From Trueperella pecoris (GTDB lineage: Bacteria > Actinomycetota > Actinomycetes > Actinomycetales > Actinomycetaceae): 64,000 bases of DNA. The stretch covers positions 1,240,001-1,304,000 of the forward strand of contig NZ_CP053291.1 in NCBI RefSeq assembly GCF_014926385.1, given 5' to 3'. The notes beneath the pieces were generated by a model. It searched no databases and was not told where the DNA came from. It saw only the letters and a list, made by a program, of their open reading frames with translations. Position numbers and translations under genes: made by a program. Shown here in pieces: positions 36,621 through 54,836 of the stretch; the first letter of the stretch is position 1; each line of letters starts with the position of its first letter.

Positions 36621-36723
36621 ACCGACTGGACCTAATTCTTAGGCCACTCCAGTGCGTTGGGGTGCACCGTTGCCCTGCGTGCGTCCGTGGTCCTGTGCTG
36701 CCTGAAGTTCGATCATGCCATGA

Positions 36724-37374: not shown

Positions 37375-37927
37375 AATTATCTGGATTTTCGACTGCTTCG
37401 GCGTCCCACCCGCTGTCATTCGGATACTGAATCGTGATAGTCACGAACTTGGTCTCAGATAGCAGTTCCGTATCGGATTCTATCTGTGACTCCACGCTGC
37501 GGAAACACTGTTCTTCACCAACGCACTCAGTGTAACTACAACTCGAAAGGTCGGGGTATCCATTCGCGTCCAGTCTGCTGCATTGTCTGATAAGAGAGTA
37601 GTAAGGGGGAACGCTTGTATTCAAACGAACATTAAGCAGCACCGGCCTACTCGGATCCAGAGAAACCGTTTCTATGTCTTCTATAGAAGGAGAATCCTCG
37701 AAAACGTCTACCCCATTTGACCCTGTCCAATTGTAGGAAACTGCGGCTAGCTGAGTTCCATTTATTGTCAGCTCAGGCGGACTTTCAGGCCCTTCTTGTA
37801 GGGGGATTAAATTTGCGCTTGAAGGCATCGAAGACGGACCTTCGGTGGGCGTCGAACATGATGAAGAAAAAATCAATAACGCCAATACAGCCGGGTAGAC
37901 TACGTCTTTCCGCGAAAGAATCAGCAT
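37340..37927 (-). CDS. Lipoprotein of unknown function
   Basis: A 195-residue protein with a lipoprotein signal: MLILSRKDVVYPAVLALL then lipobox IFSSSC (Cys24), followed by a Ser/Pro-rich linker. The mature part contains four further cysteines in RQCSRLD, LSSCSYTECVGEEQC, suggesting disulfides outside the cell. No family is recognised. Its ATG overlaps the stop of the upstream secreted-protein gene by 7 nt, so these genes form one coupled operon. Confidence 0.7.
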   Translation of the reverse strand: MLILSRKDVVYPAVLALLIFSSSCSTPTEGPSSMPSSANLIPLQEGPESPPELTINGTQLAAVSYNWTGSNGVDVFEDSPSIEDIETVSLDPSRPVLLNVRLNTSVPPYYSLIRQCSRLDANGYPDLSSCSYTECVGEEQCFRSVESQIESDTELLSETKFVTITIQYPNDSGWDAEAVENPDNYANYSFFLEQD

Positions 37928-38493
37928 GTGAATCGACTCAGGCGATTAGCTCCTCCGTTCGCCGTTTTCGCGTAGTACTTTTTTCCACCTTCTTCAGTAA
38001 AATGGGCCGAATATCCCCAATAGGTAAATGTCCCGCTTCCTCCGCAGAGGCGATGGGGATGGGCATCTTCACTTGTTTTCTTGCCTCGCGTGCTCGAAGC
38101 ATCAGAAGCTAAATATTGCATGCCGTGCCAGCGTTCTTTGTAAAGAGTCGTTACCGTTTTGAGATATGTTACCGGCCTTACACATTTAATCCGGCCGTGA
38201 ACTGAGGCCATATTGCCGCTTTTATGAGGAGAATCTGTTTGCCCAGTGCACATAGCGGGGGAGGTGATTCTGACCATAGGAAGAGCGCTCCTAGTGCTAC
38301 TCTGTTTCGACAGGGGAGTTACTCCACTTGAGGTGGTTTGTGTCTCCTGGGCAACTTGTGAAGAAGCTAAGTTCCTGACTTCTTCTAATGAAATCACTGG
38401 GTAGTCCTCAGTATTATCCGGCGGGATAGTAGCCGGAGATACGGAAAACGAAGCTGCAAGTAAAATCGCAAAGGATGCTTTTATAAGGGACAT
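37921..38493 (-). CDS. Secreted protein of unknown function, first gene of the operon
   Basis: A 190-residue protein with a Sec signal peptide (MSLIKASFAILLAASFSVSPATI). The C-terminal domain of about 90 residues, from VHGRIKCVRPVTYLKTVTTL to the final RFTC, contains paired cysteines (KCVR, RLCGGSG, FTC) and aromatic repeats (ERWHGMQYL, TYWGYSAHF). It resembles small actinobacterial secreted cysteine-rich proteins that I know only as hypothetical. CGGAGATGAT gives a good RBS for ATG 38493. The operon is enclosed by two direct ISa copies. Confidence 0.68.
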   Translation of the reverse strand: MSLIKASFAILLAASFSVSPATIPPDNTEDYPVISLEEVRNLASSQVAQETQTTSSGVTPLSKQSSTRSALPMVRITSPAMCTGQTDSPHKSGNMASVHGRIKCVRPVTYLKTVTTLYKERWHGMQYLASDASSTRGKKTSEDAHPHRLCGGSGTFTYWGYSAHFTEEGGKKYYAKTANGGANRLSRFTC

Positions 38494-38572
38494 ATCATCT
38501 CCGACGGAATGAGAATTCATGTTACATATCTGAGTCTACCACACTTTCATTCTCGCACGGGTCACGAAAGAG

Positions 38573-39086
38573 TTGCCCGGGCTGAAAAAACTAGACCATC
38601 TGGCTTGAGAGTGTCTTCCGTGACAGCCCCGGTTGGGGCAGGAAGACTGGAGAGCATGAAGAAGTTCTCGAAGCACACACCCGAACAAATCGTGGTGAAG
38701 CTCGACAAGGCCAGGTCCTTGAAGGAATCTGGCAGCACCGTGGCAGAGGTTTGCCGTGAGCTTGGCATCAGTGAGGCAACGTATCACCGGTGGCAGAGAC
38801 AGTACGGCGACATGACTCGCAGTGAAGACGGCGGTTCAAGGAGCTGCAGGAAGAAAACGAGAAGCTCAAGCGGTTGCTTGGGGAGGCTGAACTCGAAAAG
38901 TCGCTGCTTAGGGAGTTAGCAGAGGGAAAATTCTGACCCCGGCACGCAAGTACGAAGCGATTGACCATGCCCTATCGTTGGGGTACTCAGTGCGCTTGGC
39001 ATGCCGCGTTGTCGGGGTTTCCCGCGGGGCGTACTACACCGCCCGATGTCACACAACCGGGCCTTCTGCCACCAACAAGCACGCCT
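38573..39086 (+). mobile_element. ISa copy 2, truncated left part
   Basis: The sequence from GCCCGGGCTGAAAAAACTAG matches 34146-34657 without gaps and with only three substitutions near its right end. It breaks off at ACGCCT (39086), exactly where the next IS3-family element begins. The missing right part is not found on the other side of that element. Confidence 0.9.
38656..38936 (+). pseudogene. ISa copy 2 orfA, frameshifted, plus orfB remnant
   Basis: Identical to the ISa copy 1 orfA, including the one-base lesion. The start of orfB (LTPARKYEAIDHALSLGYS and following) continues to 39086 and is then cut off. No functional transposase can come from this copy. Confidence 0.85.
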
Positions 39087-39108
39087 TGAAGTGCCCCGGG
39101 TTTTGTTC

Positions 39109-40029
39109 CTAGGCGTTTGCCCTGATTTTCATTTTCTCTGATGTGCTGGCGTTGTGCCAGTACTCGTTCTCAACCTCGACCGGGGGTCGGTAGTCGAGGG
39201 CTTGGTGGAGACGAGCCTGGTTCCACCAGGTCACCCACTCGAAGGTAGCGATTTCAACCTCGAGCACATCACGCCATGTACGGGTATGGATGAGCTCGTT
39301 CTTATACGAGCCATTCACATTCTCAGCAAGCGCGTTATCGTAGGAATCCCCAACCGTCCCGGTCGATGCACTGATGCCCGCATCGAGCAGGCGCTCGTTA
39401 TACACAATACTGACGTACTGCGATCCGTGGTCTGAGTGATGAAGCACCCCGACAGTTTCCTTCGCGCTGACGATCGCTTGGTTCAACGCCTGTAGTGGTA
39501 GCGCTTCGGTGCGCATGGAATCTGATAGCGCCCAGCCGACGATCTTTCGCGAGAACACGTCCGTCACAAACGCCGCATACACGAACCCGGCGCGAGTGCG
39601 GACATACGTGATATCCGCGACCCACAGCCGATTCGGGCAAGGAGCACGAAATTCACGCTGGACTAAATCTGGCCTGGTATCTTCCCTCCGGGCTTTGCGT
39701 GTCGTGATCGGGGAACGCCCCTTACCCTTGCCCGATACTCCAGCTAGGCGCATGAGCCTCGCGGTTTGTTCCCGACCGATCTGAATTCCGCCACGGCGCA
39801 AGGCATGCCACATTTTCCGCACACCGTAGACGCCGTAGTTGCGGCCGTGAACGTCTCGAATGTGTTCCACAAGGCCAGCATCACGAACACTGCGCGTACT
39901 CAGTCCACGGGCTTTGGATTGGCGATAACCACGCGAAGTGATGAAACCGCCAACACGGTGAGTATTCAACGTCGTACAAATGAACTCAACCGAAAAACGA
40001 TCACGATACTCATCAATAAATGTGATCAT
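39109..40029 (-). CDS. ISc orfB, IS3-family DDE transposase
   Basis: A 306-residue integrase-core transposase. The HTH_21 region reads HGRNYGVYGVRKMWHALRR; DDE residues are Asp in LWVADITYVRT, Asp in HHSDHGSQYVS and Glu in ALAENVNGSYKNELI. The conserved entry MITFIDEYRDRFSVEFIC lies in the -1 frame of orfA. In zero frame orfA reads GCT TTT TCG near 40060, a T-rich spot where a -1 slip would create a FFRVGTRPP-type junction usual for this group. The orfB appears intact. Confidence 0.9.
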   Translation of the reverse strand: MITFIDEYRDRFSVEFICTTLNTHRVGGFITSRGYRQSKARGLSTRSVRDAGLVEHIRDVHGRNYGVYGVRKMWHALRRGGIQIGREQTARLMRLAGVSGKGKGRSPITTRKARREDTRPDLVQREFRAPCPNRLWVADITYVRTRAGFVYAAFVTDVFSRKIVGWALSDSMRTEALPLQALNQAIVSAKETVGVLHHSDHGSQYVSIVYNERLLDAGISASTGTVGDSYDNALAENVNGSYKNELIHTRTWRDVLEVEIATFEWVTWWNQARLHQALDYRPPVEVENEYWHNASTSEKMKIRANA

Positions 40030-40342
40030 TTCCGACGTTGGGGGTCGAGTTCCGACGCGAAAAAGCCGACGCAGCCTTCAACAACTCGTTCGTGTCGCGC
40101 AATTCTTGAACTTCACGCCTAAGCCGAGCATTCTCGACTTCGAGATCCTCCGGCAAACGCTCAACAACGCGCCCTTCACGCCTGGCTGCCTGCGTCCATT
40201 GACGGGCAGTGTGCCACGAAACACCCAGCTTCGGGGCAACCACCTGACACGCTCGTTGCAGCGAGAGTCCCTCAGCAAGGATCCGATCCTCCACCAACCG
40301 CACAACACGATCTTTCGCTTCCTGATCAAATTTCTTCGCCAT
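40013..40342 (-). CDS. ISc orfA, IS3-family helix-turn-helix protein
   Basis: A 109-residue OrfA: MAKKFDQEAKDRVVRLVED, helix-turn-helix (SLQRACQVVAPKLGVSWHTARQ) and a coiled-coil stretch (EVENARLRREVQELRDTNELL). The last ~15 residues after KAASAF are out of the orfB frame and would be replaced on frameshifting. It overlaps orfB by 17 nt. Confidence 0.88.
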   Translation of the reverse strand: MAKKFDQEAKDRVVRLVEDRILAEGLSLQRACQVVAPKLGVSWHTARQWTQAARREGRVVERLPEDLEVENARLRREVQELRDTNELLKAASAFSRRNSTPNVGNDHIY

Positions 40343-40399
40343 AATCCAGATTTTCCCATCTACTCAAACGGAACAAAACCTGGGATTCTTCTATATTTG

Positions 40400-41470
40400 T
40401 CAAGCGGGTATTAAGAGCGTGTGTTGGGAGTTGAGTGTGCGATATACTCGCCGAGCGATGTAGCGTTTGAGACATCGTCGAATTTCACGGTTGGTTTTTC
40501 CTTCTTTTTGTCTTTTTGCGACGTATTTTTTCGTTTCTTCGTCGTGGGTCATTTTCACAATAGCGACCATGTGTAGCGCGCTATTGAGTTTACGATCTCC
40601 TCCACGATTGAGACGGTGTCGAACCGTGTTGCCTGATGATGCTGGGATTGGATTGACTCCAGCAAGCGAGGCAAATTCTGCCTCCGTTTTGACTCTGCCG
40701 TAATGTGACCACGCGACAAGACACTTCGCCGCACTAACGACACCAATGCCTTTTTCTTGCAGCAATGGTGCAGCTTCACTGATCTGAACAAGGCCTGCAA
40801 GCTCACGCTCATTGTTCTCAAGCTCGCAATCGAGTTCAAGAATCTGGCGAGCAAGCCTTTTTGCTTCGGCTCTGGCAACTTGTATCTCGATATCCTCTCC
40901 ACGCATTCGCCACGAGGCAATGTGCTTGATCTGTGTACTTGATAACGTGCAACGGGCATCGACGCCCAAGGGATTACTACGCACAAGAGCAGTCAGCGCG
41001 TTAACGCTGCGGGTGCGCTGGCCTGCCAGTAATTCTCGAGACGTAATAAGGATTCGAATTGCTTGACGAACCCCACTTCCCAGACGAGGCCGACGTAATT
41101 TATCGACAGGTAACCCAAGGGCTGCTCGCGCAATCCGCGAAGAATCCAATTCATCGGTTTTCCCTGAACCGTAGCGATGTTGGTAATCAACACGAGGTGC
41201 TTCAGCAACCGATAAATTGTTAGCCAGCACCATGCCAGTCAAAATAGCGCCGTAAGAGGAGGTGCCTTCAATCACCCACAAAGTTTCTTCGTGCGAGCGG
41301 GTGTTTTTAAGAACCCAACTCATCGCGCGTTTCATTCCTGCCGCAGTCGTGGGAAACTTCTTCGAACCCAAAAGCTCTCCGGTAAGCGAAGCGAGAACTG
41401 AGTAAACATGATGGCGAGCGTGAGTATCAACACCAACGACATACGGGTGAACATCAGCGACAATAGACAT
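40400..41470 (-). CDS. IS110-family transposase (DEDD)
   Basis: A 356-residue IS110-type transposase. The N-terminal RuvC-like domain starts VVGVDTHARHHVYSV and includes VIEGTSSYGAIL and TDELDSSRIARAAL; the C-terminal Transposase_20 domain reads GIGVVSAAKCLVAW, FASLAGVNPIPASSGNTV with the serine region, and LNRGGDRKLNSALH. I start at ATG 41470; a TTG four codons upstream is less likely. The stop lies only about 8 bp from the ISc end, and the upstream side soon runs into the next gene, so there is little room for the noncoding ends that carry the bridge RNA. Confidence 0.88.
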   Translation of the reverse strand: MSIVADVHPYVVGVDTHARHHVYSVLASLTGELLGSKKFPTTAAGMKRAMSWVLKNTRSHEETLWVIEGTSSYGAILTGMVLANNLSVAEAPRVDYQHRYGSGKTDELDSSRIARAALGLPVDKLRRPRLGSGVRQAIRILITSRELLAGQRTRSVNALTALVRSNPLGVDARCTLSSTQIKHIASWRMRGEDIEIQVARAEAKRLARQILELDCELENNERELAGLVQISEAAPLLQEKGIGVVSAAKCLVAWSHYGRVKTEAEFASLAGVNPIPASSGNTVRHRLNRGGDRKLNSALHMVAIVKMTHDEETKKYVAKRQKEGKTNREIRRCLKRYIARRVYRTLNSQHTLLIPA

Positions 41471-42532
41471 AGCGGTTATCAACCTTCCCTTATATGCGAA
41501 GACAAACGACCGTTAGGCCGATACCGATCTAGGAAGGAACCACGGGCCCGACCCCCCTTCCTTATCGCCGCAACCAGCATCACGCTTGCATCAACATTCA
41601 TGGCAGGCAGGGGATACCTTGTTTGGCAGTATTTCCTCCTCGTGCCGCTATTCCTCACTCTTGCAATCCTCATCGGATGGATCAACGCCTACCTCTTTAC
41701 CCATAGTGCCGTTGGCGTCGTGTTCTCAGGACTATTCTCCCTTTTCATCTCTTTCTACCTCATTCAAAGCGCTGTTGAGTCCAACGCCTGGACCCAATTC
41801 GACTGGTCCGCCTACACCCAACTACTTGCTGTCATCACGCTCGCTACCGGAGGAATCCTCGCGCGCCGCTGGGTGCAAGAGCAACGAATCGCCACTCCCC
41901 TTGCGTGGGGATCGCTATTCGCTGTCGTCGCATATGTATGGCTAAGCGGTTATGCAAACCTACAGACTCTTCCTCGAACCGCAGACCTCCAGCCTTCCTG
42001 CGCCGAGAGCGGGCCAGACACTGTGTGCGTGTGGCCTGAGGACGCTTACAAATTGCCCACGCTCACTCAGTACGCTGCCCGTGTCCGCAGTCTTGATCGA
42101 GCTCTCGGCACGAAAGCAAACCCTGCCCTCTTTGCCGAGCCAAATATTCCACAGGTGATGGCAAATGTCGATCGCGACGGTAACTACCAAGAAAGTCAAC
42201 GTTTCTATCAGATTTATCCGGTCGGCGCCGAGCCACATGACTGGGTGGGGGCTCGCGGATTTGTTCTTAACGATTTTCTCATATGCGATGAGTCCGCAAG
42301 CCGGGTGCCTCAGGAAGAAAGAATCGCGAACAACTTTACCGTCTTAGACCTCCTCACGAATTGGATTTATGGCGATCTCACTTATGACGGCTACTCAAAC
42401 GAGAGTAACCAACACGATGCACAAACCATTGGTAGCAAATTAGCCAAACTCTCCCCCGACGAACAGTTCACGCAGTTGGGCCACATCATTGATCATTTTA
42501 TTCAAACCTGCGAGGTATCTATCAATGACTAG
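41408..42532 (+). CDS. Membrane protein, first gene of an ABC operon (5' end at the IS110 junction)
   Basis: The frame is open from 41408, but the first ~20 codons run antisense to the IS110 transposase and are probably not native. From about 41510 the protein is convincing: basic residues, then five or so membrane helices (PFLIAATSITLASTFMAG, YFLLVPLFLTLAILIGWI, GVVFSGLFSLFISFYLI and others), then a ~200-residue polar C-terminal domain (e.g. CVWPEDAYKLPTLTQYAARV). No good RBS is present, and ATG 41600 would cut the first helix. The gene probably lost its true start when the IS inserted. The stop overlaps the ABC ATPase start. Confidence 0.6.
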   Translation: MMASVSINTNDIRVNISDNRHSGYQPSLICEDKRPLGRYRSRKEPRARPPFLIAATSITLASTFMAGRGYLVWQYFLLVPLFLTLAILIGWINAYLFTHSAVGVVFSGLFSLFISFYLIQSAVESNAWTQFDWSAYTQLLAVITLATGGILARRWVQEQRIATPLAWGSLFAVVAYVWLSGYANLQTLPRTADLQPSCAESGPDTVCVWPEDAYKLPTLTQYAARVRSLDRALGTKANPALFAEPNIPQVMANVDRDGNYQESQRFYQIYPVGAEPHDWVGARGFVLNDFLICDESASRVPQEERIANNFTVLDLLTNWIYGDLTYDGYSNESNQHDAQTIGSKLAKLSPDEQFTQLGHIIDHFIQTCEVSIND

Positions 42533-43253
42533 CTATCCAATGTCAATTAACGCCAGTAATCTCTGCCAAGGGTACGGCCGAGCGGACGTTCTCCATCACC
42601 TTTCTTTTTCTCTCGAGGGCCCCGGAATAGTTGGGCTACTCGGCCCAAATGGCGCAGGAAAATCTACCCTGATCAAAACACTAATTACCCAATACCCACC
42701 GCGCTCAGGAAATCTGCATGTACGAGGCACAGACGTTCACGACAAGAAGGCCGTACGCGCGCTACGCCAACAGCTTGGATACTTGCCACAGAATCATCAA
42801 GCAGACAGGTCTTTTACAGCCCACGAATTCGTCTCATATGCCCTCTGGATGCGCGAATACGATAATGCTCTTATCGCTTCTGCCGCAAGCACCGCATTAG
42901 ATAAGGTCGGGCTCATTCAAGACGCACACACCAAGCTTTCGAAGTTCTCCGGCGGAATGTACCAACGTGCTGGGATTGCGGCAGCGATTGCTGGCGAGCC
43001 TGCAATCATCGTTCTCGATGAACCAACCTCTGGGCTCGATCCCCAACAACGGGCCCAGTTCCGTCAGGTTTTAAGATCGTTGACCGATTCCCTGTGCATA
43101 CTCAGCACGCATTTGATCGAAGATGTGCACGTTCTCGCTGACACCCTCCTCGTCTTAAACGACGGTATCGTCACCTATTGTGGCCCTACGCAGTTCCCCG
43201 AATCGGCGTCGGTCGAAGACCTGGAAGCACACTATGCAGCGCTCTTGGGATAA
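42525..43253 (+). CDS. ABC transporter ATP-binding protein
   Basis: A 242-residue ATPase of the ABC-2/drug or peptide exporter type. Walker A GPNGAGKST, Q-loop LGYLPQNH, signature FSGGM (a variant of LSGGQ), Walker B IIVLDEPTSGLD, and switch histidine STHLIED. ATG 42525 overlaps the upstream gene's stop by 8 nt with GAGG in front, and the gene overlaps the following permease. Together with two membrane proteins it forms a likely exporter; the cargo is unknown. Confidence 0.88.
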   Translation: MTSYPMSINASNLCQGYGRADVLHHLSFSLEGPGIVGLLGPNGAGKSTLIKTLITQYPPRSGNLHVRGTDVHDKKAVRALRQQLGYLPQNHQADRSFTAHEFVSYALWMREYDNALIASAASTALDKVGLIQDAHTKLSKFSGGMYQRAGIAAAIAGEPAIIVLDEPTSGLDPQQRAQFRQVLRSLTDSLCILSTHLIEDVHVLADTLLVLNDGIVTYCGPTQFPESASVEDLEAHYAALLG

Positions 43254-43863
43254 CAGAACGGCATCGCGCTCTCCCCACGTACTGTTCTTGCAGATCCGGC
43301 GCGCTCAGCTTCTAACAGTCTTGGTTATCGGCGTGAGTGTCCTCTTTTTCGCGCTGATCCCGGTGTCCTACGGGATTCCTCCTCTGAATAACGTGAGAGA
43401 AACTCCTGTTTTCAGGGTGTTGCCAGCCGTTGTCGGGATCTTGTGCGCTTCGAGCGTTAATCCTATCGGATCCGATCAAGAACTTCTGCGCGGATGCCGC
43501 GCCCGGAACTTGCGCAGCGCGCTGCCCTTCCTGTTGCTTTTTCTTGCCTTGGTCACCATCGCTCTCACTGGCTGGCTGTTCTCTCTTGTTTATCCAGACC
43601 AAGAGGTCCTTGGGGTCATTGCGCCGATGCTGACAAGCACGGTCATTTTTACGGCCGTGGGAATCATTTCTGCATGCTATCTAACGGGATCATGGCAGGT
43701 AATCCCCACAGCGGCCCTTTTCCTCGTACTCGTAGGGTTTGGATTCCAGACTTTCATTACCCCTTATGCCTGGAATATTTTCTTCCACATATCCGCACCT
43801 ATCGCGCTCATCGCGGGTTTGAGCGCAGTGCTGGCGTTCCTAGCGCTGAGACATAGGTACTAA
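43234..43863 (+). CDS. ABC transporter permease-like membrane protein
   Basis: A 209-residue protein with about six hydrophobic helices (LLTVLVIGVSVLFFALIPV, ALPFLLLFLALVTIALTGWL, STVIFTAVGIISACYL, IPTAALFLVLVGFGF, APIALIAGLSAVLAFLAL). It starts inside the ATPase gene (20-nt overlap), so it is coupled to it and likely forms its membrane half. No subfamily is recognised. It is convergent with ribF, 26 bp apart. Confidence 0.75.
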   Translation: MQRSWDNRTASRSPHVLFLQIRRAQLLTVLVIGVSVLFFALIPVSYGIPPLNNVRETPVFRVLPAVVGILCASSVNPIGSDQELLRGCRARNLRSALPFLLLFLALVTIALTGWLFSLVYPDQEVLGVIAPMLTSTVIFTAVGIISACYLTGSWQVIPTAALFLVLVGFGFQTFITPYAWNIFFHISAPIALIAGLSAVLAFLALRHRY

Positions 43864-43889
43864 CTCTTCGCCACATCGTCGATTGTGCG

Positions 43890-44873
43890 CTATCGGGCGG
43901 TCACATCCTTCGGGTTCACGCGGTAAGACACGGGCACGCCGAGAATCTCAGCTGTACGCCGCAAGTCTTTGTCCATTTGATCCTGTAGCTGCTCGACCGA
44001 TGCCATTTTCATCATGGGACGCACGTAATCGACGAAATCAATAGCGATCTCCTCCCCGTACAGGTTGAGGTCGCTACGGCCGAGGACGTGTGCTTCAACG
44101 GTACGTTCGTCACCGTCAAACTGCGGGTTCGTCCCAATCGAGATCGCCGCCGGAAGGTGAATCGTTGCCGTGGAGTCGGGAACCTTTTGGACAACCCAGC
44201 CTGCGTAAACGCCGTCACGCGGCACTTCCCCAACGCCGGATCCTGGCAGGTTAGCGGTGGGAAAGCCGAGTTCACGCCCACGTTTAAAACCATGCTCCAC
44301 GACGCCACGCAACCGGTGTGGACGCCCGAGAATCTTGGCTGCCTTGCGCACGTTACCGGCGTCGAGCAATTCGCGAATCCAGGTCGAAGAATATCGGCGC
44401 CCAGAATCGCCCCCGAGGTCGTTGATGAGCGTCACGTCAACCCGTCCGGCGAGGTGCGAGGCGAGCAGGGTGCCGTCTCCAGCGTTACCCTTACCGAAGC
44501 GGACATCCTCGCCCACGACGACGGCCACGGCCTTCAGCTTTCCTACCAGTTCGACATCGATGAAGTCCTCCGGGCTTGTCTCGGCGTAGCCCACATCGTA
44601 CTTCTGCACGACGACGACGTCGATGCCGGCCGCCTCGAGCAGGTCGAGGCGATCTTCGAGTGTCGAGATGAGTGGAAGGTCCACGTTGGGTCGGTGCACG
44701 TGGCTGGGATGCGGATCGAAGGTTAGAACCACCGACTGCGCGCCGCGTTCTTCAGCCTGGGCCACCGTTTCGCGCAGGATTGCATGGTGGCCCTTGTGCA
44801 CGCCGTCGAAGATGCCGATTGTCACAACGGAAGGGCCGAGGTCGTATTCCTCGGCCGATGAAAAGATCTTCAT
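43890..44873 (-). CDS. ribF: Bifunctional riboflavin kinase/FAD synthetase
   Basis: Makes FMN from riboflavin, then FAD. The 327 residues have an N-terminal adenylyltransferase domain (VVTIGIFDGVHKGHHAIL; VVGEDVRFGKGNAG; STWIRELLDAGNV) and a C-terminal riboflavin kinase domain (GFKRGRELGFPTANL; PRDGVYAGW). The ATG directly follows the stop of the Cys/Gly/His-rich gene (TAGATG), so translation is coupled to it. Confidence 0.96.
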   Translation of the reverse strand: MKIFSSAEEYDLGPSVVTIGIFDGVHKGHHAILRETVAQAEERGAQSVVLTFDPHPSHVHRPNVDLPLISTLEDRLDLLEAAGIDVVVVQKYDVGYAETSPEDFIDVELVGKLKAVAVVVGEDVRFGKGNAGDGTLLASHLAGRVDVTLINDLGGDSGRRYSSTWIRELLDAGNVRKAAKILGRPHRLRGVVEHGFKRGRELGFPTANLPGSGVGEVPRDGVYAGWVVQKVPDSTATIHLPAAISIGTNPQFDGDERTVEAHVLGRSDLNLYGEEIAIDFVDYVRPMMKMASVEQLQDQMDKDLRRTAEILGVPVSYRVNPKDVTAR

Positions 44874-47342: not shown

Positions 47343-48401
47343 CTACCTGATCGTAGGTGCGAGGGAGAAGTCCCCGATGAACCAACAGTAGGTGAAGAGG
47401 AGGGAGACCTCGGCACCAAGCGGACGCGGCGAGGTCGTGTCGGCTTCGGTGACGACGAGAGTGCCCACAGCCGTCTCAAGCTCATATTCCATGTGTGTAC
47501 GGGCAAAGATCGAACGAATGATTCGTCCAGCCAGCATGCCCTGATCCGGCTCTCCTATCGCGATCGTTTCGGGTGGGACGACGACGTGCGCGCGGCTCGG
47601 CACAAGCTCCTGAACACGTGGCAAGGCTAACCACGTGCGACCGAACTCAACCTTCGCGTGGTCAGGGCCGACATGGGTGATCTTCCCATCCAAAATGTTC
47701 GCAATCCCCATGATACGAGCGACGAAGGCCGACGCAGGGCGGCGATAGACCTCCGTCGGAGAGCCGATCTGGACGATGCGACCACCGTCCATCAGCGCGA
47801 TCAGATCCCCGAGGCGGCAAGCCTCGTCGACGTCGTGAGTCACGTAGATCGTGGCGAGCTTGTTGCGCCTCACCTGCGCGACGATGTCGGTCTGTATCGC
47901 ACCACGAAGTGGTGGGTCGACGTGAACGAGAGGTTCGTCCAGAAGGAGTATCCGTGGCCGGCGAACAAGCGTGCGGGCGAGTGCGACCCGCTGAACCTGC
48001 CCGCCCGATAGGTGTCCGACAGGAAGGCGGGCAAGGCTGGAAATGTTGAGTTGAGCGAGCGTGAGATCCACCAGATCACTGCGGCGGGAGTCCTTCATCC
48101 GAGCGTCATCCAGCCCAAAGGCAACGTTCGACCACACGTCATGATCCGGGAAGAGCATCGATTCTTGGAAGACAGTACCCGTTGGGCGAAGATGCATGGG
48201 CAGATCGGTGATATCGCGATCCCCCACGAGAATTCGCCCCGTGGAGGCTACCGCGCCCGCCACTGCATGGATGAGTGTCGATTTGCCACAGCCAGATGGG
48301 CCAACGACGGCAAGAATCTTGCCCTCGTCGACACTCAGGCAGATGTCGTCCAAAATCTTCGGGACGCTGAGATGATCAATGACAAGTTGCGAGGTTGTCA
48401 C
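47343..48401 (-). CDS. ABC importer ATP-binding protein (AfuC/FbpC-like)
   Basis: A 352-residue importer ATPase. Walker A GPSGCGKST, Q-loop GTVFQESMLFPDHD, signature LSGGQVQRVALARTL, Walker B ILLLDEPLVHVD, switch YVTHDVDEA, then a C-terminal TOBE-like region. GTG 48401 overlaps the stop of the fused permease gene (GTGA) and has AGGAGG at ideal distance; the longer frame upstream is an antisense artefact of the permease gene. It energises the binding-protein/permease fusion next door. The FbpC/PotA class fits sugar-phosphate, iron or polyamine uptake; the binding domain favours sugar phosphate. Confidence 0.88.
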   Translation of the reverse strand: MTTSQLVIDHLSVPKILDDICLSVDEGKILAVVGPSGCGKSTLIHAVAGAVASTGRILVGDRDITDLPMHLRPTGTVFQESMLFPDHDVWSNVAFGLDDARMKDSRRSDLVDLTLAQLNISSLARLPVGHLSGGQVQRVALARTLVRRPRILLLDEPLVHVDPPLRGAIQTDIVAQVRRNKLATIYVTHDVDEACRLGDLIALMDGGRIVQIGSPTEVYRRPASAFVARIMGIANILDGKITHVGPDHAKVEFGRTWLALPRVQELVPSRAHVVVPPETIAIGEPDQGMLAGRIIRSIFARTHMEYELETAVGTLVVTEADTTSPRPLGAEVSLLFTYCWFIGDFSLAPTIR

Positions 48402-50806
48402 AACTTCCTCCTCACGTGATGCCACAGCACACCTGCCATGGAAAGAAGCGCCATAATGAGGGCGGCCGTGACCACGCTTACCGCAAATGCCTGCCCATCC
48501 TCCGCCGCTGAAACATGGTCGATAATCGCGAGCGGGGCTATGGATAGCTTGCCTCCCAGGTCGATGAAGATGGCCGGAGCACTGCGGGTCAGAACAAGGC
48601 CAGTCAAGAGCGCCAGCGCCACCGTTAGGGAGGGGAAGATGACCGGGATGAGCTCCACGGCCATACGCAGGCGGTAGGCGCCGGCGTCGCGCATCTCGCG
48701 TACCAGCGGATCGACGCGTAGCCGAATGATGATGATCATCAGGACGGCCATCGGCAGAGCCAATAGCAAGTACGCAAGTGCCACGCCGACGAGGCCCTGA
48801 TAGATGGAGTCCACACCTACGATGGGCGGCACAATCCGAGTTCCTGCGAGCTGGAGCCAGTCGCGGTGAAGCGCCCAGACCAACACGCCGCCCGAGATCT
48901 GCGCCGAGAGCGCCACCGCGAGCGCCACGTAGACGCTCGCACGAAGCCCACGCCGCCCCAGCGGAGCAGCAACCACGATCAGCCCGGCCAACATCAGGGC
49001 AATGGTGACGACGAGCAGCAAGACGCCCGTCGTCGTCGTGAACATGAGCGAAGGTTGGGGCCTCGCCAAGTGGCTGACGATGACGCCCACCAGCGAAAGA
49101 ACGCCGATCCCGAACGCAACAGTAGCCCAGCCCCACCACCATGTAGTGGGCGGGCGGAGATGGCGCGGTTCGACCCTCCGCAACCGGGCCGTCAGCGCCT
49201 TGCTCAGCGGAATAGCCACAAGCGCGGCCACGCCGATCGACATGATCAGGGCCGATGCCGCAGCTCCTGGCCTATTCGTGGCAATCCCCGTGAGCACGTC
49301 CGAGGCAAAATACCTCTGCGGCCCGCCAAAAATTAGCGTCAATGAGGGATCCGTTAACGCAAGTAACGCAACTACAGCGCTTGCCATCGCAAATCCGCGC
49401 ACCACGTTCGGGGCAAGAAGCCGGATGGCTATCGTCGTAGCCCTCATCCCAAGCGCCCGCGCCTCGACCATGTGCCGGTCCGAGACCGCCGAAAGCGCCA
49501 AGACCACGATCACGAAGGCGACCGGCTCGAGAGCAACCGCGTTGGCCACTATCACGATTGCGGGGCCATAGGGATTCATGCTGAAAGGCCCGTACGTCAG
49601 CGCCAACGCCCAGGTGACCGGCGGAAACAGGAAAGGCAACGCCGCACAGATGAAGGTCAGCCCCCGCCCCCGGCCCAAACGGAACGCGAGCGCCATGACA
49701 GAGCCGGCGACCGCCGCGAGGACTCCCGCGATGAGAGAAAGGGTACCGCTTCGAAGAAGCGGCCCCAAGGGGCTATCTCCTGCGAAGTAGATCTCCTCCT
49801 CCCACATCCGGATCAGCTCGGCGCGGTGCCTGCCCGCCTCGGCGATGTTCTCGCCAAAGATGGGGGTGGCGAAGCTGTCGAGTTTTGTTCGCAGGTTCCC
49901 CTCCAGCGCCGCCGACGTCGGATACTGATGCGAGGACGTGGCGCTGACGCGCTGGCCCCTATCGGACACTGCGAGGCTCAGGAAATCCTGAGCAAGGTCG
50001 GGCCTTTTTGTGCCGGCGAGCAGGCCCACCGAGCCAATCTCGAAGCCCGTGCCATCCGCGAAATACACAGCATGAACCGGAGCACCCGCCGCCTGCTCAG
50101 CTAGGCAGTAAGAATCGAAAGTGACTGCACTTGGTAGGCGACCGCCCGCCACGAGTTGTGCCGGCACCGTACCCGACTGCGTGTAGGTGCCCACGTGGCG
50201 CCCCACCGCCGCATAGTAATCCTTGGCCACGGCAAGCGAACCGAGGCGCTCGTACTGGCTCCACAGAAAGGTTGCGGCCGTGCCCGACGTCGACGGGTTG
50301 GGCATCGCGATTGCCAAGTTTGAGCCAGCCAGCTCCTCCCACGACGCCGGGGCGACGACGTCGTCCGCGACGCACAGGCTCAGGACTCCCCCATACACGC
50401 CAAACCAGCGCAATTGCGGGTCTTTCCATCCGCTGGGGATGGAATTGGGTGGTTCACTGCTTGCCGGACGTAAGAGGCCGTGAGCGGCGGCCTCCGTGTA
50501 GGCCTCGGCCGGACCGCCCATCCACAGATCGAATTCTCCGTGCGAATGCGGGGAGGAAATGTGGGCCAGTGCCTGTGAGGTAGGCATGCGCACGACCAAA
50601 ACGTCAACGTCTTGTTCGCTTTCAAAAGTGCGGGCGACTGCCTCACACGCTTCGGCTTTGTTCGAGCACAATACGGCCAGATCGGGCGCAGAGGCGCGGG
50701 CCGAGAGCAACGCAAGCAGCGCAAACGCCACCACCACGGGGATCGCGACAAGCGCGGGCAGGTGGCGGCGGAGCCAGCGGGAATTGCGCAACATAGGAAA
50801 GAGCAT
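48398..50806 (-). CDS. Fused substrate-binding protein and double permease of an AfuAB/FbpAB-type ABC importer
   Basis: One polypeptide of about 800 residues. A membrane anchor (LVAIPVVVAFALLALL) is followed by a family-1 binding domain of ~290 residues with AfuA-type marks: EFDLWMGGPAEAYTEAAAHG, WEELAGSNLAIAMPNPSTSG, GTYTQSGTVPAQLVAGGR, FADGTGFEIGSVGLL. After about residue 345 come two BPD_transp_1-like halves with about twelve helices, as in AfuB/FbpB; an EAA-like loop is visible in VEARALGMRA and a second around MRDAGAYRLRMAVELIP. Usually binding protein and permease are separate genes. The start may be GTG 50815, ATG 50806 or ATG 50794, because a hairpin covers the site. Confidence 0.82.
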   Translation of the reverse strand: MLFPMLRNSRWLRRHLPALVAIPVVVAFALLALLSARASAPDLAVLCSNKAEACEAVARTFESEQDVDVLVVRMPTSQALAHISSPHSHGEFDLWMGGPAEAYTEAAAHGLLRPASSEPPNSIPSGWKDPQLRWFGVYGGVLSLCVADDVVAPASWEELAGSNLAIAMPNPSTSGTAATFLWSQYERLGSLAVAKDYYAAVGRHVGTYTQSGTVPAQLVAGGRLPSAVTFDSYCLAEQAAGAPVHAVYFADGTGFEIGSVGLLAGTKRPDLAQDFLSLAVSDRGQRVSATSSHQYPTSAALEGNLRTKLDSFATPIFGENIAEAGRHRAELIRMWEEEIYFAGDSPLGPLLRSGTLSLIAGVLAAVAGSVMALAFRLGRGRGLTFICAALPFLFPPVTWALALTYGPFSMNPYGPAIVIVANAVALEPVAFVIVVLALSAVSDRHMVEARALGMRATTIAIRLLAPNVVRGFAMASAVVALLALTDPSLTLIFGGPQRYFASDVLTGIATNRPGAAASALIMSIGVAALVAIPLSKALTARLRRVEPRHLRPPTTWWWGWATVAFGIGVLSLVGVIVSHLARPQPSLMFTTTTGVLLLVVTIALMLAGLIVVAAPLGRRGLRASVYVALAVALSAQISGGVLVWALHRDWLQLAGTRIVPPIVGVDSIYQGLVGVALAYLLLALPMAVLMIIIIRLRVDPLVREMRDAGAYRLRMAVELIPVIFPSLTVALALLTGLVLTRSAPAIFIDLGGKLSIAPLAIIDHVSAAEDGQAFAVSVVTAALIMALLSMAGVLWHHVRRKL

Positions 50807-50831
50807 AGCTGCCACCGAAGTGACAGCTATG
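50804..50831 (-). promoter_or_regulatory. Hairpin over the start of the fused importer gene
   Basis: CATAGCTG-CAC pairs with GTG-CAGCTATG around a CGAA loop (one internal mismatch). It fills the gap between the antiporter stop and the importer gene and covers its candidate ATG, so it may act as a partial terminator or limit translation. Confidence 0.55.
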
Positions 50832-50844
50832 CCCGGCCCATCTT

Positions 50845-52251
50845 CTATTCGGCGCTCGTCGCATTCATGCGAAGCAACTCTTCACGGGCTTCCATCATCT
50901 TCTTCTCATCGCGTCCCACAATCATCATGAGGATGAAGGCAAGTGCGACGACGACCGTGAGCGTCGCGTACGTGAAGTTCCAGCCGAAGGAGTGGATGAG
51001 GATGCCGACGCCGGTTGAGGCCAGCGACGCGCCCAGGAGGTAGCCGAACAGTCCGGTAAAGCCTGCTGCCGTGCCCGCCACCTCACGCGGGGACAGGTCG
51101 ATGGCCTGCAGGCCAATGAGCATGACCGGGCCGTAGATCAAACCACCAATGACGGCGATGAGAACGTAGAAGACCCAGATCGGCGCGGTCACCGGAAGCT
51201 GCCAGTAGGCGATGAGGGCGATACCCACTCCTGCGAGGAAGAGCATGCCCGCGCCCGATCTCCAGCCCTTGAAGACCTTGTCAGAGAGCCAGCCACACAG
51301 GAGGGTTCCCACGATGCCCGCGAGCTCGTAGATCGCAAAACCGATGATTCCGGTCTTGATGTTGGCGCCGTGGATCACGTCGGTCAGGTAGACAGGGATC
51401 CAGCTCAAAACGCCGTAGCGCAAGGTGTAGACGAAGACGTTGGCAATCGCGAGCAGAACGATGACGCGGTTGGTCAACACGTGCTTGAACAGCATCGTCT
51501 TCCACGACATGCCCGAGCCAACGCTCTCAACCTTCGCCGGATCGTTACGGTACTCCTCGATCGGCGGCAGGCCCACGGCCTCGGGCCGATCGCGAATCAT
51601 GAAGAAGATGATGACTGCGATCAGGAGGGCGACGTAGCCCGGCACGCTGAAGGCCGGCGTCCAGTCGGACTTCGAGGCGGCGAAATTATCCAGTGCCCAT
51701 ACGGCGAGGAAGCCCAGTCCGGCCCCGCCAACGTTATGAGCCGTGTTCCAAATCGAGGTCATCCAGCCACGCTCGGTTGTTGAGAACCAGTGCACGAGCA
51801 CGCGGCCCGACGGGGGCCAGCCCATGCCCTGCGCCCAGCCGTTGATGAACATGACGGTCGCAAAAATTCCTACGGATCCCACGATTGAGGGGACGAAGGA
51901 AATAATAATGTTAATGATTGCCGAGATAGCCAAGCCGATCGGCATGAAGTAGCGGGCGTTTGCTCGATCGGAGAGCATGGCCATGAAGAATTTCGACAGG
52001 CCGTAAGAAAAGAGCACCGCGTTGGCAACGATGCCGATGCCCACGGTGTTCATGAGCTCGTATTCCTTGAGGAGGCCGGAAACGAGCGAGACGTTGTTTC
52101 GGATCAGGTAGAAGGCCGCGTATCCGATGAAGATTCCCATGAACACCTGAAAACGCAGGCGCTTGTAGGTGGATTGGATACGACCTTCTTCAAGTCGAGG
52201 GGCGGCAGGTGGCGCCGAGAGGACGCCCATTCCGCCAGATGCGTGTGCCAT
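50845..52251 (-). CDS. Organophosphate:phosphate antiporter family transporter (UhpT/GlpT/PgtP-like)
   Basis: A 468-residue major facilitator of the OPA family with twelve membrane helices. Family marks are FIGYAAFYLIRNNVSLV, YGLSKFFMAMLSDRANARYF, INGWAQGMGWPPSGRVLVHW (the OPA signature), and IYGPVMLIGLQAIDLSPREV. Members exchange a phosphorylated organic compound (hexose phosphate, glycerol-3-phosphate, phosphoglycerate) for phosphate. Exact substrate is not readable. It lies 103 bp downstream of a response regulator and just upstream of the fused importer, the order expected if the two-component system controls it. Confidence 0.9.
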   Translation of the reverse strand: MAHASGGMGVLSAPPAAPRLEEGRIQSTYKRLRFQVFMGIFIGYAAFYLIRNNVSLVSGLLKEYELMNTVGIGIVANAVLFSYGLSKFFMAMLSDRANARYFMPIGLAISAIINIIISFVPSIVGSVGIFATVMFINGWAQGMGWPPSGRVLVHWFSTTERGWMTSIWNTAHNVGGAGLGFLAVWALDNFAASKSDWTPAFSVPGYVALLIAVIIFFMIRDRPEAVGLPPIEEYRNDPAKVESVGSGMSWKTMLFKHVLTNRVIVLLAIANVFVYTLRYGVLSWIPVYLTDVIHGANIKTGIIGFAIYELAGIVGTLLCGWLSDKVFKGWRSGAGMLFLAGVGIALIAYWQLPVTAPIWVFYVLIAVIGGLIYGPVMLIGLQAIDLSPREVAGTAAGFTGLFGYLLGASLASTGVGILIHSFGWNFTYATLTVVVALAFILMMIVGRDEKKMMEAREELLRMNATSAE

Positions 52252-52354
52252 TTGTTCCCTTTCACAAAAACGCGTCGTTGCGTTGATGTGTCGATAGTAA
52301 AAAATGGCTGGTAACGGCCGTGGCCAGCGCTGGTCACACTCAGTGACCGGGCTG

Positions 52355-53047
52355 TTACTTTTCTTCTGCCTTCTGGAGCGCTATCGAGTACCCCTCGCCG
52401 CGATGGGACCGAATCACGACGCCGACCCCGGACTTCTCCAGCGTCTTGCGCACGCGATATATCGCCGTCTTGACCATTTCGCGCCCGCCCGCCGCTTCGC
52501 TGACTCCCCATGCCTCGTTGAGGAGCTGGCGATGGGTGGCGACGTCGCCACCGTGACGCATGAGCGCTGCCAGCAGGCGGACCTCGGTGCCTGAAACATT
52601 CAGTTTGCGCCCGTGCCAGGTCGCCTCGAGGAAGTCCATATTCACGGCGAGGCCACCCAAGCGGTCGCGTTCATCTTCGGCGGGGAAGCTACGGCGAAGG
52701 AGCGCTTGGGCGCGCAACGCCAGCTCCTGGGGCGAAAACGGCTTCGTGAGGTAATCGTCGGCGCCAGCTTCGAGGCCCTCGATGCGGTCCTCGACGTCCG
52801 AGCGGGCAGTCAGCAGGATAATCGGCAGGTCACTCTGAGCACGGATCCGGCGGGTAAGTTCAAGTCCCGATCCATGGGGCAGCATAATGTCCACGACAGC
52901 GAGGTGAAACTCGTAGGTGGACATGTGGCGCCAGGCCTCGGCGACGCTCGCAGCGCTGACGCAGGTAAAGCCTTTCGTTTCGAGGGAAAAGGCGACGATG
53001 GCCAGCATTTGTGGCTCGTCATCCACGACGAGGGCGCGTGGCTTCAT
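52355..53047 (-). CDS. OmpR/PhoB-type response regulator
   Basis: A 230-residue regulator: receiver domain with acidic pocket VVDDE, phosphoacceptor Asp53 in VVDIMLPHGSG, conserved Thr/Lys (LLTARS; DDYLTKPFSPQEL), and a winged-helix DNA-binding domain (HGGDVATHRQLLNEAWG; IYRVRKTLEKSG). Its ATG overlaps the kinase stop (ATGA). It probably activates the downstream transporter genes. Confidence 0.93.
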   Translation of the reverse strand: MKPRALVVDDEPQMLAIVAFSLETKGFTCVSAASVAEAWRHMSTYEFHLAVVDIMLPHGSGLELTRRIRAQSDLPIILLTARSDVEDRIEGLEAGADDYLTKPFSPQELALRAQALLRRSFPAEDERDRLGGLAVNMDFLEATWHGRKLNVSGTEVRLLAALMRHGGDVATHRQLLNEAWGVSEAAGGREMVKTAIYRVRKTLEKSGVGVVIRSHRGEGYSIALQKAEEK

Positions 53048-53838
53048 TGCTCTCCCCTTTCTGGATGTCCCTGTGGCAACACGACAACGATTGTCGTCCC
53101 GATGTCCGGCCTTGAATCGACCATCATCCTACCGCCGTGCGCATCCACGATCTCCTGCGAGACGAGCATCCCGATGCCTGAGCCCGGGCGTCTGCTGGAC
53201 CCTGTGGCGAAGGCGGTGAAGAAATTCTCTAGGTCCACGCTGTCCATGCCGTTGCCGTGGTCCGTCACCTCGAGCAACGCTCCTCCGTGCTCTGCCTGCG
53301 TGACCCGCACATGTACCCCGTCTTCGCCCTCCGCGTGGCGGATCGCGTTGTTGACCAGATTCCACACGAGCTGCCGAATGAGCTGCTCATCGGCATACAG
53401 TGGCAGTATCCCTCCACGCACGTCAACAAGAATTGGCACGTCCGTCGTTCGCCGTAACGACTGCGCCGCGTGCGCGACGACGTCACGGATATCCACCAAG
53501 TCCGATCTCAACCGGAGGTTTCCATCCTTGAAGCGACGCTGAACAAGAGAGTTCTCCGCAATGCCAATCGCCTGCTGGGCGTTGTCAAAAATGGTGTTGA
53601 CGAAGCCTTCTTGGGTCGGATTCAGCGGGCCAGGACTACGTCCGATGAGGAGCTCGGCGGCGGCCTCGATAAGCGACAGCGGGGTTCGGATCTCATGAGC
53701 GACGACGGCCGGCTGGCTCTCGTAGCGTTTGACCTGCGCGGTGGCCGCGGCTAGGTCTCCGGCGAGCCGACGGTTGCCCACCGCAAGATAGCCGATGGCG
53801 CCCGTGGCCAGTACCGCACCAACGATCACCGCGATCAT
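53044..53838 (-). CDS. Sensor histidine kinase lacking an extracellular domain
   Basis: A 264-residue kinase: one N-terminal membrane helix (MIAVIVGAVLATGAIGYLAV), a short coiled linker, the HisKA domain with His48 in VVAHEIRTPLS, and the HATPase domain (N box NLVNNAIRHAEG, G1 DHGNGMD, G2 GSGIGM). There is no second helix or external loop, so it cannot bind an outside ligand by itself and may need a membrane partner. The ATG overlaps the truB stop (ATGA). Confidence 0.9.
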   Translation of the reverse strand: MIAVIVGAVLATGAIGYLAVGNRRLAGDLAAATAQVKRYESQPAVVAHEIRTPLSLIEAAAELLIGRSPGPLNPTQEGFVNTIFDNAQQAIGIAENSLVQRRFKDGNLRLRSDLVDIRDVVAHAAQSLRRTTDVPILVDVRGGILPLYADEQLIRQLVWNLVNNAIRHAEGEDGVHVRVTQAEHGGALLEVTDHGNGMDSVDLENFFTAFATGSSRRPGSGIGMLVSQEIVDAHGGRMMVDSRPDIGTTIVVVLPQGHPERGEQ

Positions 53839-54836
53839 AGCGTCAGTTGCAAGTCCGGCTTAAGCTTGCCCGCACGCGGGGACACTAGGGCCACGGGCAT
53901 GTCGCCGAGGAAGGTTGCTGCCGGCCATTGATCGATGTTCCTACGCATGGCAATAAACAGGCCTTGGCGCAGCGCCTTCGCTTCGCTTTCGTCGACCTCG
54001 ATCACGGGGAAAACATCCCTGCACACCTGCGCCATGGACGCAACCGGCAAGGGCTCATCCCTCTCGAGGATTTCCTTGAGCCGGGACACCGAATGTGCGT
54101 CTGCCACATCCCAGTCTCCCACATGTGTGCGGCGTAGCGCGGTCAGGTGGGCGTCGGTGCCAAGGCCACGGCCCACGTCACGGGCAAGAGCGCGCACGTA
54201 CGTGCCACTCGAAGCGCGTACCACGGCGTCAAACTCCGCCACGACAGCCAGCTTGTCCCCGACCCTGGCCTCGCGCCGTGTCACGGGCGACGTGCGCGCA
54301 AAACGAGCCACGTGGATCGGGCGCGCCTCGAGTTCCACCTGCGCACCCTCGCGTACCAGATCGTGCGCCCTCCGGCCGTCGACCTTGATCGCGGACACCG
54401 TGGAGGGCACCTGCAAGATCTGACCAGTCAGCGCCGCCAAGGCGGCGTCGATTTCGGCGTCCGAGGCCATTGCAGGATCCGAAGCAAAAAGCTGCCCCTC
54501 GGCGTCGTCGGTGCTCGAACCGATGCCGAGGCATATGCGTGCCTCGTAGGTCTTATCCGCGCCGATGATGTACTGGATCAGCTTCGTCACGCGCCCGGTG
54601 GCAACGATCAGCAGGCCCGTCGCCATCGGGTCGAGCGTCCCGCCGTGGCCCACCTGACGGGTTGCCCCGAGGCGGCGAACCGCCCCCACGATGTCGTGGG
54701 AGGTCACGCCCTTGTCCTTGTCGATCAGAAGCAGTCCCTCGCACGGGCGCGAGCCGCGCGGCAGTTCGCCCCACGGCTTCGGACGCGCCTGGCGGGCAAG
54801 GGCACGATCGCGGTTGTGCTGGCGCCCCTTCGGCAC
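53835..54836 (-). CDS. truB: tRNA pseudouridine(55) synthase
   Basis: Converts U55 in the T loop of tRNAs to pseudouridine. The 333 residues carry the catalytic Asp69 in GHGGTLDPMATGLL, the LLLIDKDKGVTSH start of the core, YEARICLGIGSSTDDAEG, and GTYVRALARDVG. The N-terminus has a basic extension of ~30 residues. GTG 54836 overlaps the rbfA stop (TAGTG), and the stop overlaps the kinase gene. Confidence 0.95.
   Translation of the reverse strand: MPKGRQHNRDRALARQARPKPWGELPRGSRPCEGLLLIDKDKGVTSHDIVGAVRRLGATRQVGHGGTLDPMATGLLIVATGRVTKLIQYIIGADKTYEARICLGIGSSTDDAEGQLFASDPAMASDAEIDAALAALTGQILQVPSTVSAIKVDGRRAHDLVREGAQVELEARPIHVARFARTSPVTRREARVGDKLAVVAEFDAVVRASSGTYVRALARDVGRGLGTDAHLTALRRTHVGDWDVADAHSVSRLKEILERDEPLPVASMAQVCRDVFPVIEVDESEAKALRQGLFIAMRRNIDQWPAATFLGDMPVALVSPRAGKLKPDLQLTL

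Follow-up and report, generated by a model that had tools for sequence, protein, structure and literature searches.

The minus strand of the window, a 64,000-nucleotide stretch of Trueperella pecoris DNA, carries five genes at positions 47343-53838 in the order histidine kinase, response regulator, organophosphate:phosphate antiporter, binding-protein/permease fusion and ATP-binding cassette (ABC) ATPase. An earlier reading made from the letters alone (the sequence-only reading) had proposed these five genes in this order as a candidate sugar-phosphate sensing and uptake system; all five were confirmed, and their assignment to a single organophosphate-related locus was supported. The kinase (53044-53838) is a 264-residue protein with HisKA and HATPase domains and one N-terminal membrane helix, without an extracellular sensor domain. 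The 230-residue PhoB/OmpR-type regulator (52355-53047) contains the Response_reg and Trans_reg_C domains and scored 178.6 bits against TIGR02154 (cut-off 296.2). The GlpT-type antiporter (50845-52251; 468 residues) belongs to MFS_1. The fusion (48398-50815) comprises 805 residues from a GTG start at 50815 or 798 residues from an in-frame ATG at 50794, which is possibly the true start. A membrane anchor at residues 19-37 precedes its AfuA-fold binding domain (residues ~45-342; 49790-50683), and a double permease domain follows (residues ~346-805; 48401-49780). The 352-residue ATPase (47343-48401; ABC_tran domain) starts from a GTG that overlaps the fusion stop.

The claim that most of the genes overlap held for three of the five junctions, namely truB/kinase (ATGA), kinase/regulator (ATGA) and fusion/ATPase (GTGA), each with a 4-base overlap. 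The two others proved to be gaps of 103 nt (regulator-antiporter) and 29 or 50 nt (antiporter-fusion), and both hold elements common to relatives: a candidate operator, GTAAC-N6-GTCAC-N5-GTGAC-N17-GTTAC (52311-52358, minus strand), and a 15-pair hairpin (50801-50834, minus strand) that spans the GTG start of the fusion and leaves the ATG downstream.

The fusion was found to be one unbroken open frame, with no stop or frameshift between the binding domain and the permease. The domain search matched residues 50-302 to the Pfam families SBP_bac_11, SBP_bac_6 and SBP_bac_8 and residues 369-544, weakly, to BPD_transp_1 (16.3 bits, cut-off 26.4), so that the single polypeptide read earlier from the letters was upheld. 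When 59 genomes were searched, a full-length and stop-free fusion was obtained from one genome of another genus and from five of the nine genomes of the window's genus, counting that of the window itself; the four remaining full-length fusions of this genus were 60-67% identical to the window fusion.

The survey was then widened to 213 genomes of the family, in 110 of which the binding domain was matched at E 1e-10. Besides the window's own, 94 matches were listed at E 1e-50 or better, and the neighbourhoods of 73 of them (all 40 that reached E 1e-90 and 33 of the 54 that did not) were examined together with that of genome G050 from the order. None of the 21 remaining matches had a GlpT-like antiporter (>500 bits) within 10 kb. 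In the resulting 75 loci (the window and 74 others) a GlpT-like antiporter was present in the examined stretch of 42 and absent from 33. The fused form was recorded in 13 of the 42 antiporter loci, each with one open frame: five in the window's genus, five in genus group g25, two in g50 and one in g10. The same fusion thus recurs in four genus groups of the family. A sequencing artefact was ruled out by 13 fused frames in 13 genomes, and a fusion peculiar to the window by its recurrence in 13 loci. An alignment-based profile search of genome contigs gave 21 loci with named organisms: Trueperella sp., T. bernardiae, Arcanobacterium phocae and two Arcanobacterium sp. had the fused form, T. bonasi, other Arcanobacterium, Flaviflexus, Ancrocorticia, Gleimia and Actinotignum had the unfused form, and in Schaalia cardiffensis the binding-protein frame was split. 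In its unfused form the gene set is widespread across the family.

All 24 unfused permeases that were aligned (of 27 available) began with 33-99 residues that have no counterpart in the fused permeases, and in both unfused permeases scanned for hydropathy the first helix fell within this extra stretch. Because this helix region is absent from the fused permeases, that of the window included, the binding domain occupies the place of the first extracellular loop, and its own anchor helix would take the position of permease helix 1. For the whole fusion, the AlphaFold model had a mean pLDDT of 91.4, and a search of the PDB with this model returned only binding-protein matches among the best 50 listed. 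Parsimony needs two changes to explain the origin of the fusion, and the approximately unbiased test did not reject one clade (p 0.488). The 28 unfused binding proteins of antiporter-type loci, judged by eye, comprised 14 lipoproteins and 14 helix-anchored proteins; 12 of the latter belong to the clade that holds all fused ones, L085 lies outside it and L116 was not placed.

The model of the binding domain (pLDDT 95.8) had its best fold match in AfuA (4r73_A; Z 38.6, rmsd 2.1 over 295 residues), in agreement with the AfuA-type domain proposed before, followed by the glucose-6-phosphate-binding VcA0625 (Z 38.2), P5PA (35.3) and iron-binding proteins (33.7 or lower). In the sequence search AfuA (4r72) matched the window binding domain at E 3.9e-25, compared with ~2e-3 or worse for FbpA and 3e-5 for a Thermus iron protein. 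Iron or polyamine transport, which had been named as the competing assignment, was rejected since AfuA is far ahead of the FbpA-type proteins; the fold scores also speak against iron.

According to an excerpt of the AfuA study, the H205A, D206A and E229A substitutions abolished glucose-6-phosphate binding (PMC4546632). The corresponding residues of the window are S, Y and E, H205 and D206 being aligned with S235 and Y236 of the fusion. In the pocket alignment of 74 rows (the broken locus L079 was left out), H205 and D206 were kept in 33 of 33 antiporter-free copies and both were lost in 41 of 41 antiporter-linked copies, where position 205 was P (30), A (5), S (3) or other residues and position 206 was Y (39) or H (2). 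The phosphate-end residues S/T37, S148, G149, T150 and G185, together with Y103, were invariant in both groups; S9 and T37 were invariant in the antiporter-linked copies, and E229 and Q269 were conserved in all rows except L116. This invariance implies that the phosphate end of the pocket has been maintained in the antiporter-linked copies. The pocket check suggested earlier thus confirmed the AfuA fold by predicted structure and the phosphate end by alignment, whereas the hexose residues are gone, and a sugar phosphate as the ligand was not supported.

The window antiporter was 44.1% identical to E. coli GlpT, 33.6% to UhpC and 28.2% to UhpT, and matched the PDB entry 1pw4 at E 1e-118. Its best NCBIfam family was glpT (TIGR00712; 477.3 bits, below the equivalog cut-off of 632.55), while the UhpT and PgtP models scored 231.2 bits (cut-off 497) and 288.1 bits (cut-off 750), respectively. 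Substrate-site positions and site names were taken from GlpT and UhpT lists that we assume to be correct. Among 58 antiporters compared, including 16 away from such loci, the GlpT-type W138 was present in 54 and Y362 in all 58, and A/T replaced the UhpT residues D388/K391 in all 58. In the window antiporter 14 of 15 GlpT positions were identical, position 274 differing (S for D); most of these positions are common to UhpT, W138 and Y362 are not. Of the UhpT/GlpT-like label given before, only the GlpT part was retained, and on these residues the antiporter is GlpT-type, not UhpT-type. Since the hexose residues are lost and the antiporter is of the GlpT type, a small phosphate ester is the probable ligand rather than a hexose phosphate, glycerol-3-phosphate or a similar compound being the most likely. 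In one orphan locus, L130, the antiporter gene is followed by a GlpQ-like frame (E 2.6e-9), which gives weak support to glycerol-3-phosphate.

Kinases were found in 70 of the 74 examined loci and regulators in 71, with or without the antiporter; the exceptions were a split kinase in L082, a short contig in L095 and the lack of the pair in L021 and L104. A recognisable H-box was present in 69 of the kinases, and it was preceded by exactly one hydrophobic helix in 66, by none in two and by two in one. Neither the window kinase nor the kinase starts of 12 relatives that were inspected contained an extracellular domain. The kinase HptS of Staphylococcus aureus has an extracellular part to which HptA binds (PMC8774646, excerpt); direct contact of this kind was excluded here, because the kinase has no extracellular domain, and the signal must pass within the membrane or the cytosol. 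The proposed double role of the binding domain in capture and signalling was therefore kept in part: a sensing role is plausible and the tether is conserved, but there is no extracellular kinase contact. In Bce modules a kinase of the intramembrane-sensing family needs an ABC translocator with a large extracytoplasmic loop (PMC3023708, excerpt). We think that the fused permease, with the binding domain in place of its first loop, resembles the Bce layout by convergence.

The operator-like repeats lie in the 103-nt gap and the last bases of the regulator gene and are kept in five of five fused genomes of the genus; in L014 GTTAC/GTAAC stand for GTCAC/GTGAC and the inner palindrome is intact. 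The three-repeat pattern, with one mismatch allowed, gave one site in the window at an expectation of 0.10, and 10 of 100 shuffles had one. Genome-wide, one site each was found in four relatives, always just before the antiporter gene of the locus, and two in genome G000, one of them at this locus, while the reversed-pattern control gave 0 sites in all five genomes. The second G000 site (G000:C1:1556237-1556262), inside a lipoprotein-like gene near a GDPD-family gene, is probably due to chance. A scan for Sigma-70-like promoters found 2 at 1.8 expected.

Hairpins were counted as strong at -20 kcal/mol or stronger, with L012, L079 and L116 left out and the window not counted. A strong hairpin followed the antiporter gene in 29 of 32 loci (shuffles 8/96). 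After the binding-protein gene it was recorded in 5 of 26 antiporter loci (shuffles 7/78) and in 25 of 32 antiporter-free loci, for which the shuffle control is weak (42/96 reach -20) owing to GC content. The remaining junctions, where represented by more than 10 loci, gave counts near those of the shuffles, the largest excess being at the regulator-binding protein junction of antiporter-free loci (8/29 vs 14/87). The stems differ in sequence between genera. A Rho-independent terminator was rejected for the antiporter-fusion hairpin, as the T run is weak in the window, and a stabiliser or attenuator is preferred for this reason.

The rates of change were compared for locus pairs with a regulator identity of 46-52%, comprising 373 antiporter-type and 177 antiporter-free pairs. 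Median identities were 18.0% vs 72.3% for the permease (low permease identities carry alignment error), 34.4% vs 64.8% for the ATPase and 35.0% vs 76.1% for the binding protein, respectively, whereas those of the kinase were 38.9% vs 42.7%; the antiporter itself had a median identity of 64.1% in the antiporter-type pairs. The other three regulator-identity bins agreed. In three genomes holding both types, the permease identities were 24.0, 26.4 and 48.4% for the antiporter-type locus vs 59.6, 60.0 and 99.3%. The ATPase motifs were read from alignment columns in 39 antiporter-type (L116, L079 and L078 left out) and 33 antiporter-free loci. The Q-loop Gln was kept in 18 of 39, the first Gly of LSGGQ in 24 of 39 and Ser as the first D-loop residue in 2 of 39 antiporter-type copies, and each of the three in 33 of 33 antiporter-free copies. 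In Gleimia the signature is LSTGQ. The window ATPase has an intact DEP and a D-loop VHVD where antiporter-free relatives have SNLD, and in its genus the D-loop is the only motif that departs. With start codons set by rule, the binding-protein and permease genes were estimated to overlap in 26 of 26 unfused antiporter loci vs 3 of 33 antiporter-free ones.

An order-wide search of 297 genomes returned 19 matches at E 1e-40. Eight came from outside the family, and the neighbourhoods of all eight, including that of G050, were examined. L174, from another family, and L146, from Propionibacteriaceae, are antiporter-type loci with FAPYC where AfuA has FLHDY and with changed ATPase D-loops; the ATPase signature of L174 is LSAGQ. 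L177-L180 are antiporter-free and have FSHDC, the D-loop SNLD and the signature MSGGQ, and their binding-protein genes are followed by strong hairpins (-28.9 to -37.4). The pocket pattern found no match in L175 and L176, nor did the H-loop pattern in L146. The 33 antiporter-free loci of the survey (e.g. L022, L086-L115) represent a widespread AfuABC-type module with an intact hexose-phosphate motif, beside which the kinase-regulator pair was found in 30 of 33; no published description of this module was found in the literature searched.

The divergence, the motif drift, the gene overlap, the position of the hairpin and the anchoring together fit a pump that was turned into a one-to-one receptor; in loci with the antiporter, the ABC part seems to have been reduced to this role. 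The combination of both transport modes, as put forward by the sequence-only reading, became the weaker interpretation, since the ABC half evolves as if pumping were not strongly constrained. It was proposed, at about an even chance, that the locus is a response module for a small extracellular phosphate ester, in which GlpT-type bulk uptake is placed under an ABC-derived receptor and a sensor-less kinase. The likely ligand, glycerol-3-phosphate or a similar three-carbon compound, would be captured by the binding domain tethered to the permease at the place of the first extracellular loop. The ABC complex, with one binding domain per permease and a slow or residual ATP turnover, would change its conformation on capture, and this change would reach the kinase by membrane or cytosolic contact. 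The kinase would then phosphorylate the PhoB-like regulator, which would bind the repeats at 52311-52358 and turn on the antiporter, the fusion and the ATPase. The antiporter would take up the bulk of the ester in exchange for phosphate, and the hairpin would hold the expression of the receptor genes below that of the antiporter. Such a module could have arisen when a GlpT gene entered the locus of an AfuABC-like pump that had a two-component system of its own, the pump being reduced to a receptor afterwards. We advance more tentatively, as somewhat short of evenly likely, that the nutrient importer was converted wholesale to a receptor that works mainly in signalling via the sensor-less kinase: the binding domain would have changed its ligand class and been anchored and then fused, and the ATPase would have drifted from the canonical motifs. 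If true, this conversion would parallel, for a nutrient, the Bce antibiotic-sensing modules, and its intermediate stages would still be seen in living genera.

Several observations weigh against the receptor proposal. The Walker A Lys, the catalytic Glu and the H-loop His were kept in 39 of 39 antiporter-type ATPases, as in all 33 antiporter-free ones; the ATPases of the window and its four fused relatives have the Walker A, Q-loop, LSGGQ, Walker B and H-loop motifs intact, and the permease keeps recognisable EAA-type loops in the window's genus. With these motifs and loops intact, pumping, and hence import, may persist in the window's own genus. Fast evolution of the permease could be a sign of new substrates, its identities include the alignment error mentioned above, and a change of substrate in a transporter that still pumps would account for part of these findings. 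The H205/D206 switch maps to a single branch of the tree, so the 41 vs 33 copies represent one evolutionary event. The weak shuffle control also lowers the weight of the antiporter-free hairpins, and the hairpin after the antiporter gene of L174 reached only -16.3, which is not strong. Among 16 further loci with a similar antiporter, 15 had no such kinase or regulator alongside. In L117 the binding protein and the permease were lost, yet the kinase, the regulator and an antiporter-ATPase frame are kept; this 858-aa frame (G184 C18, 6414-8990) joins a GlpT-like antiporter directly to an ABC ATPase with the Walker A GCGRS where others have GCGKS, and L117 looks like a decaying antiporter-type locus. 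Finally, a GlpD-type C-terminal domain was not found in the fused genomes of the genus (G000, G005-G008), although it is present in the unfused G001 and G004, so that glycerol-3-phosphate would lack that route into carbon metabolism in the fused species. A ligand of this type would serve there as a source of phosphate or phospholipid rather than of carbon. G000 has a glycerol kinase, two GDPD-family proteins in which no signal peptide was seen by eye, and a single GpsA-type match (85.5 bits) beside an apparent SorC-type regulator.

The mostly intact ATPase motifs of the window's genus, the complete permease with EAA-like loops and the confident model of the fusion would also suit a dual uptake, as in the sequence-only reading but with another substrate, in which a low-affinity, high-capacity antiporter and a high-affinity fused ABC importer take up the same phosphate ester and the ABC part is also a co-sensor; AfuABC is a proven importer (PMC4546632, excerpt). 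We consider this unlikely, because the permease and the ATPase diverged family-wide only where the antiporter is present, and there the binding-protein gene overlaps the permease gene and is no longer followed by a strong hairpin. It is more doubtful still that the ABC part imports a different compound, such as an aminophosphonate, a vitamin phosphate (e.g. pyridoxal 5'-phosphate) or another ester, and shares the locus through a common phosphate-supply control: the best NCBIfam matches of the ABC part are PhnS2/PhnT2 of a putative aminoethylphosphonate type (below cut-off), the relative P5PA binds pyridoxal 5'-phosphate (PMC8427247, excerpt) and the regulator has its best score with PhoB, but the pocket type is linked to the presence of the GlpT-type antiporter, and one or two operator-pattern sites per genome speak against a broad regulon. 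That the kinase senses a cytosolic or membrane state, e.g. internal phosphate, independently of the ABC genes as mere targets would agree with its lack of an extracellular domain, shared by antiporter-free relatives, and is nevertheless very improbable given that the kinase and regulator accompany the module, antiporter or not, at the frequencies noted above.

The receptor module proposed here was compared with known systems. It shares with AfuABC, the hexose/heptose-phosphate importer of Actinobacillus, the binding fold, the phosphate-end residues and the set of double permease and ATPase, and differs in the loss of H205/D206, in the fused binding domain and in the presence of a two-component system and a GlpT-type antiporter in the locus. 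HptARS-UhpT of Staphylococcus aureus likewise has a binding-protein-like component, a kinase, a regulator and an organophosphate:phosphate antiporter in one locus; here, however, the kinase has no extracellular domain, the antiporter is GlpT-type, and a permease and an ATPase are present. The PDB entry 6lkg, which we take to be HptA, was a more distant fold match to the binding domain (Z 28.3) than AfuA. The phosphoglycerate system PgtABCP of Salmonella consists of the membrane sensor PgtC, a kinase, a regulator and the transporter PgtP (PMC11077982, excerpt). The three-carbon organophosphate logic is similar, whereas the antiporter is far below the PgtP cut-off. To our knowledge, PgtABCP includes no ABC permease or ATPase. 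BceRSAB-type modules involve an ABC transporter with a large extracytoplasmic loop in kinase signalling (PMC3023708, excerpt), a role that is proposed here for an importer-type permease with an AfuA-fold domain, a one-helix kinase, a nutrient in place of an antibiotic and a secondary transporter as the target. In the fused importers OpuA and GlnPQ, as described in the portions of the literature available, the substrate-binding domain is covalently linked to the membrane domain; the chain found here contains a single binding domain together with both halves of the permease, which probably means one binding domain per complex. Judged by its genes, the module would be one in which a transporter-derived receptor controls an organophosphate antiporter through a two-component system, and would not be a member of any of the systems compared; it may work most like Bce-type transporter sensing combined with Hpt/Pgt-type targets. 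Pst-type sensing and UhpC are further transporter-sensor parallels. No description of a module of antiporter, fused ABC transporter and two-component system was found in the literature searched (titles and abstract openings).

Sensor-transporters such as Bce are known (PMC3023708, excerpt), and the change from pump to receptor is rarely visible. A single family here displays its putative steps, from antiporter-free pumps to antiporter loci with lipoprotein, anchored and fused binding proteins and drifting ATPases, so that a few orthologues would suffice to test at what point a transporter ceases to pump and is left with sensing alone. Genes of this kind, for which databases offer iron, polyamine or phosphonate transport as the nearest labels, may be organophosphate sensors, and the receptor proposal, if true, would amount to a new design of nutrient sensor.

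Some loci of the survey departed in their arrangement. The usual order of the antiporter type was kinase-regulator-antiporter-binding protein-permease-ATPase, and in L017, L018, L019, L064, L065 and L067 it was binding protein-permease-ATPase-kinase-regulator-antiporter. L079 (G183) is a broken antiporter-type locus with a split binding protein and a short permease, L082 (G232) is one with the split kinase, and L116 (G111) has a diverged binding protein and an inverted antiporter. A 694-aa frame joining a regulator and a binding protein in L087 (G071, 6397-8481) was rejected as a fusion, as the regulator end is read out of frame and the binding protein possesses a start and a lipobox of its own; a frameshift or a draft error is likelier. 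In L024 (G050, 6795-9644) a 949-aa open frame contains the ATPase and overlaps a permease frame with its start at 6778; as the permease and ATPase matches are in different frames, no permease-ATPase fusion is claimed.

In the window, the locus is flanked by rbfA and truB on one side and by lemA, a DUF2207 gene and ribF on the other, rbfA, truB and ribF being named from their translations. The upstream truB (53835-54836, minus strand) is the same neighbour in L011-L014 by blastp. The G+C content of positions 36001-44000 was ~53%, compared with ~59-64% in the remaining 4-kb steps of the window.

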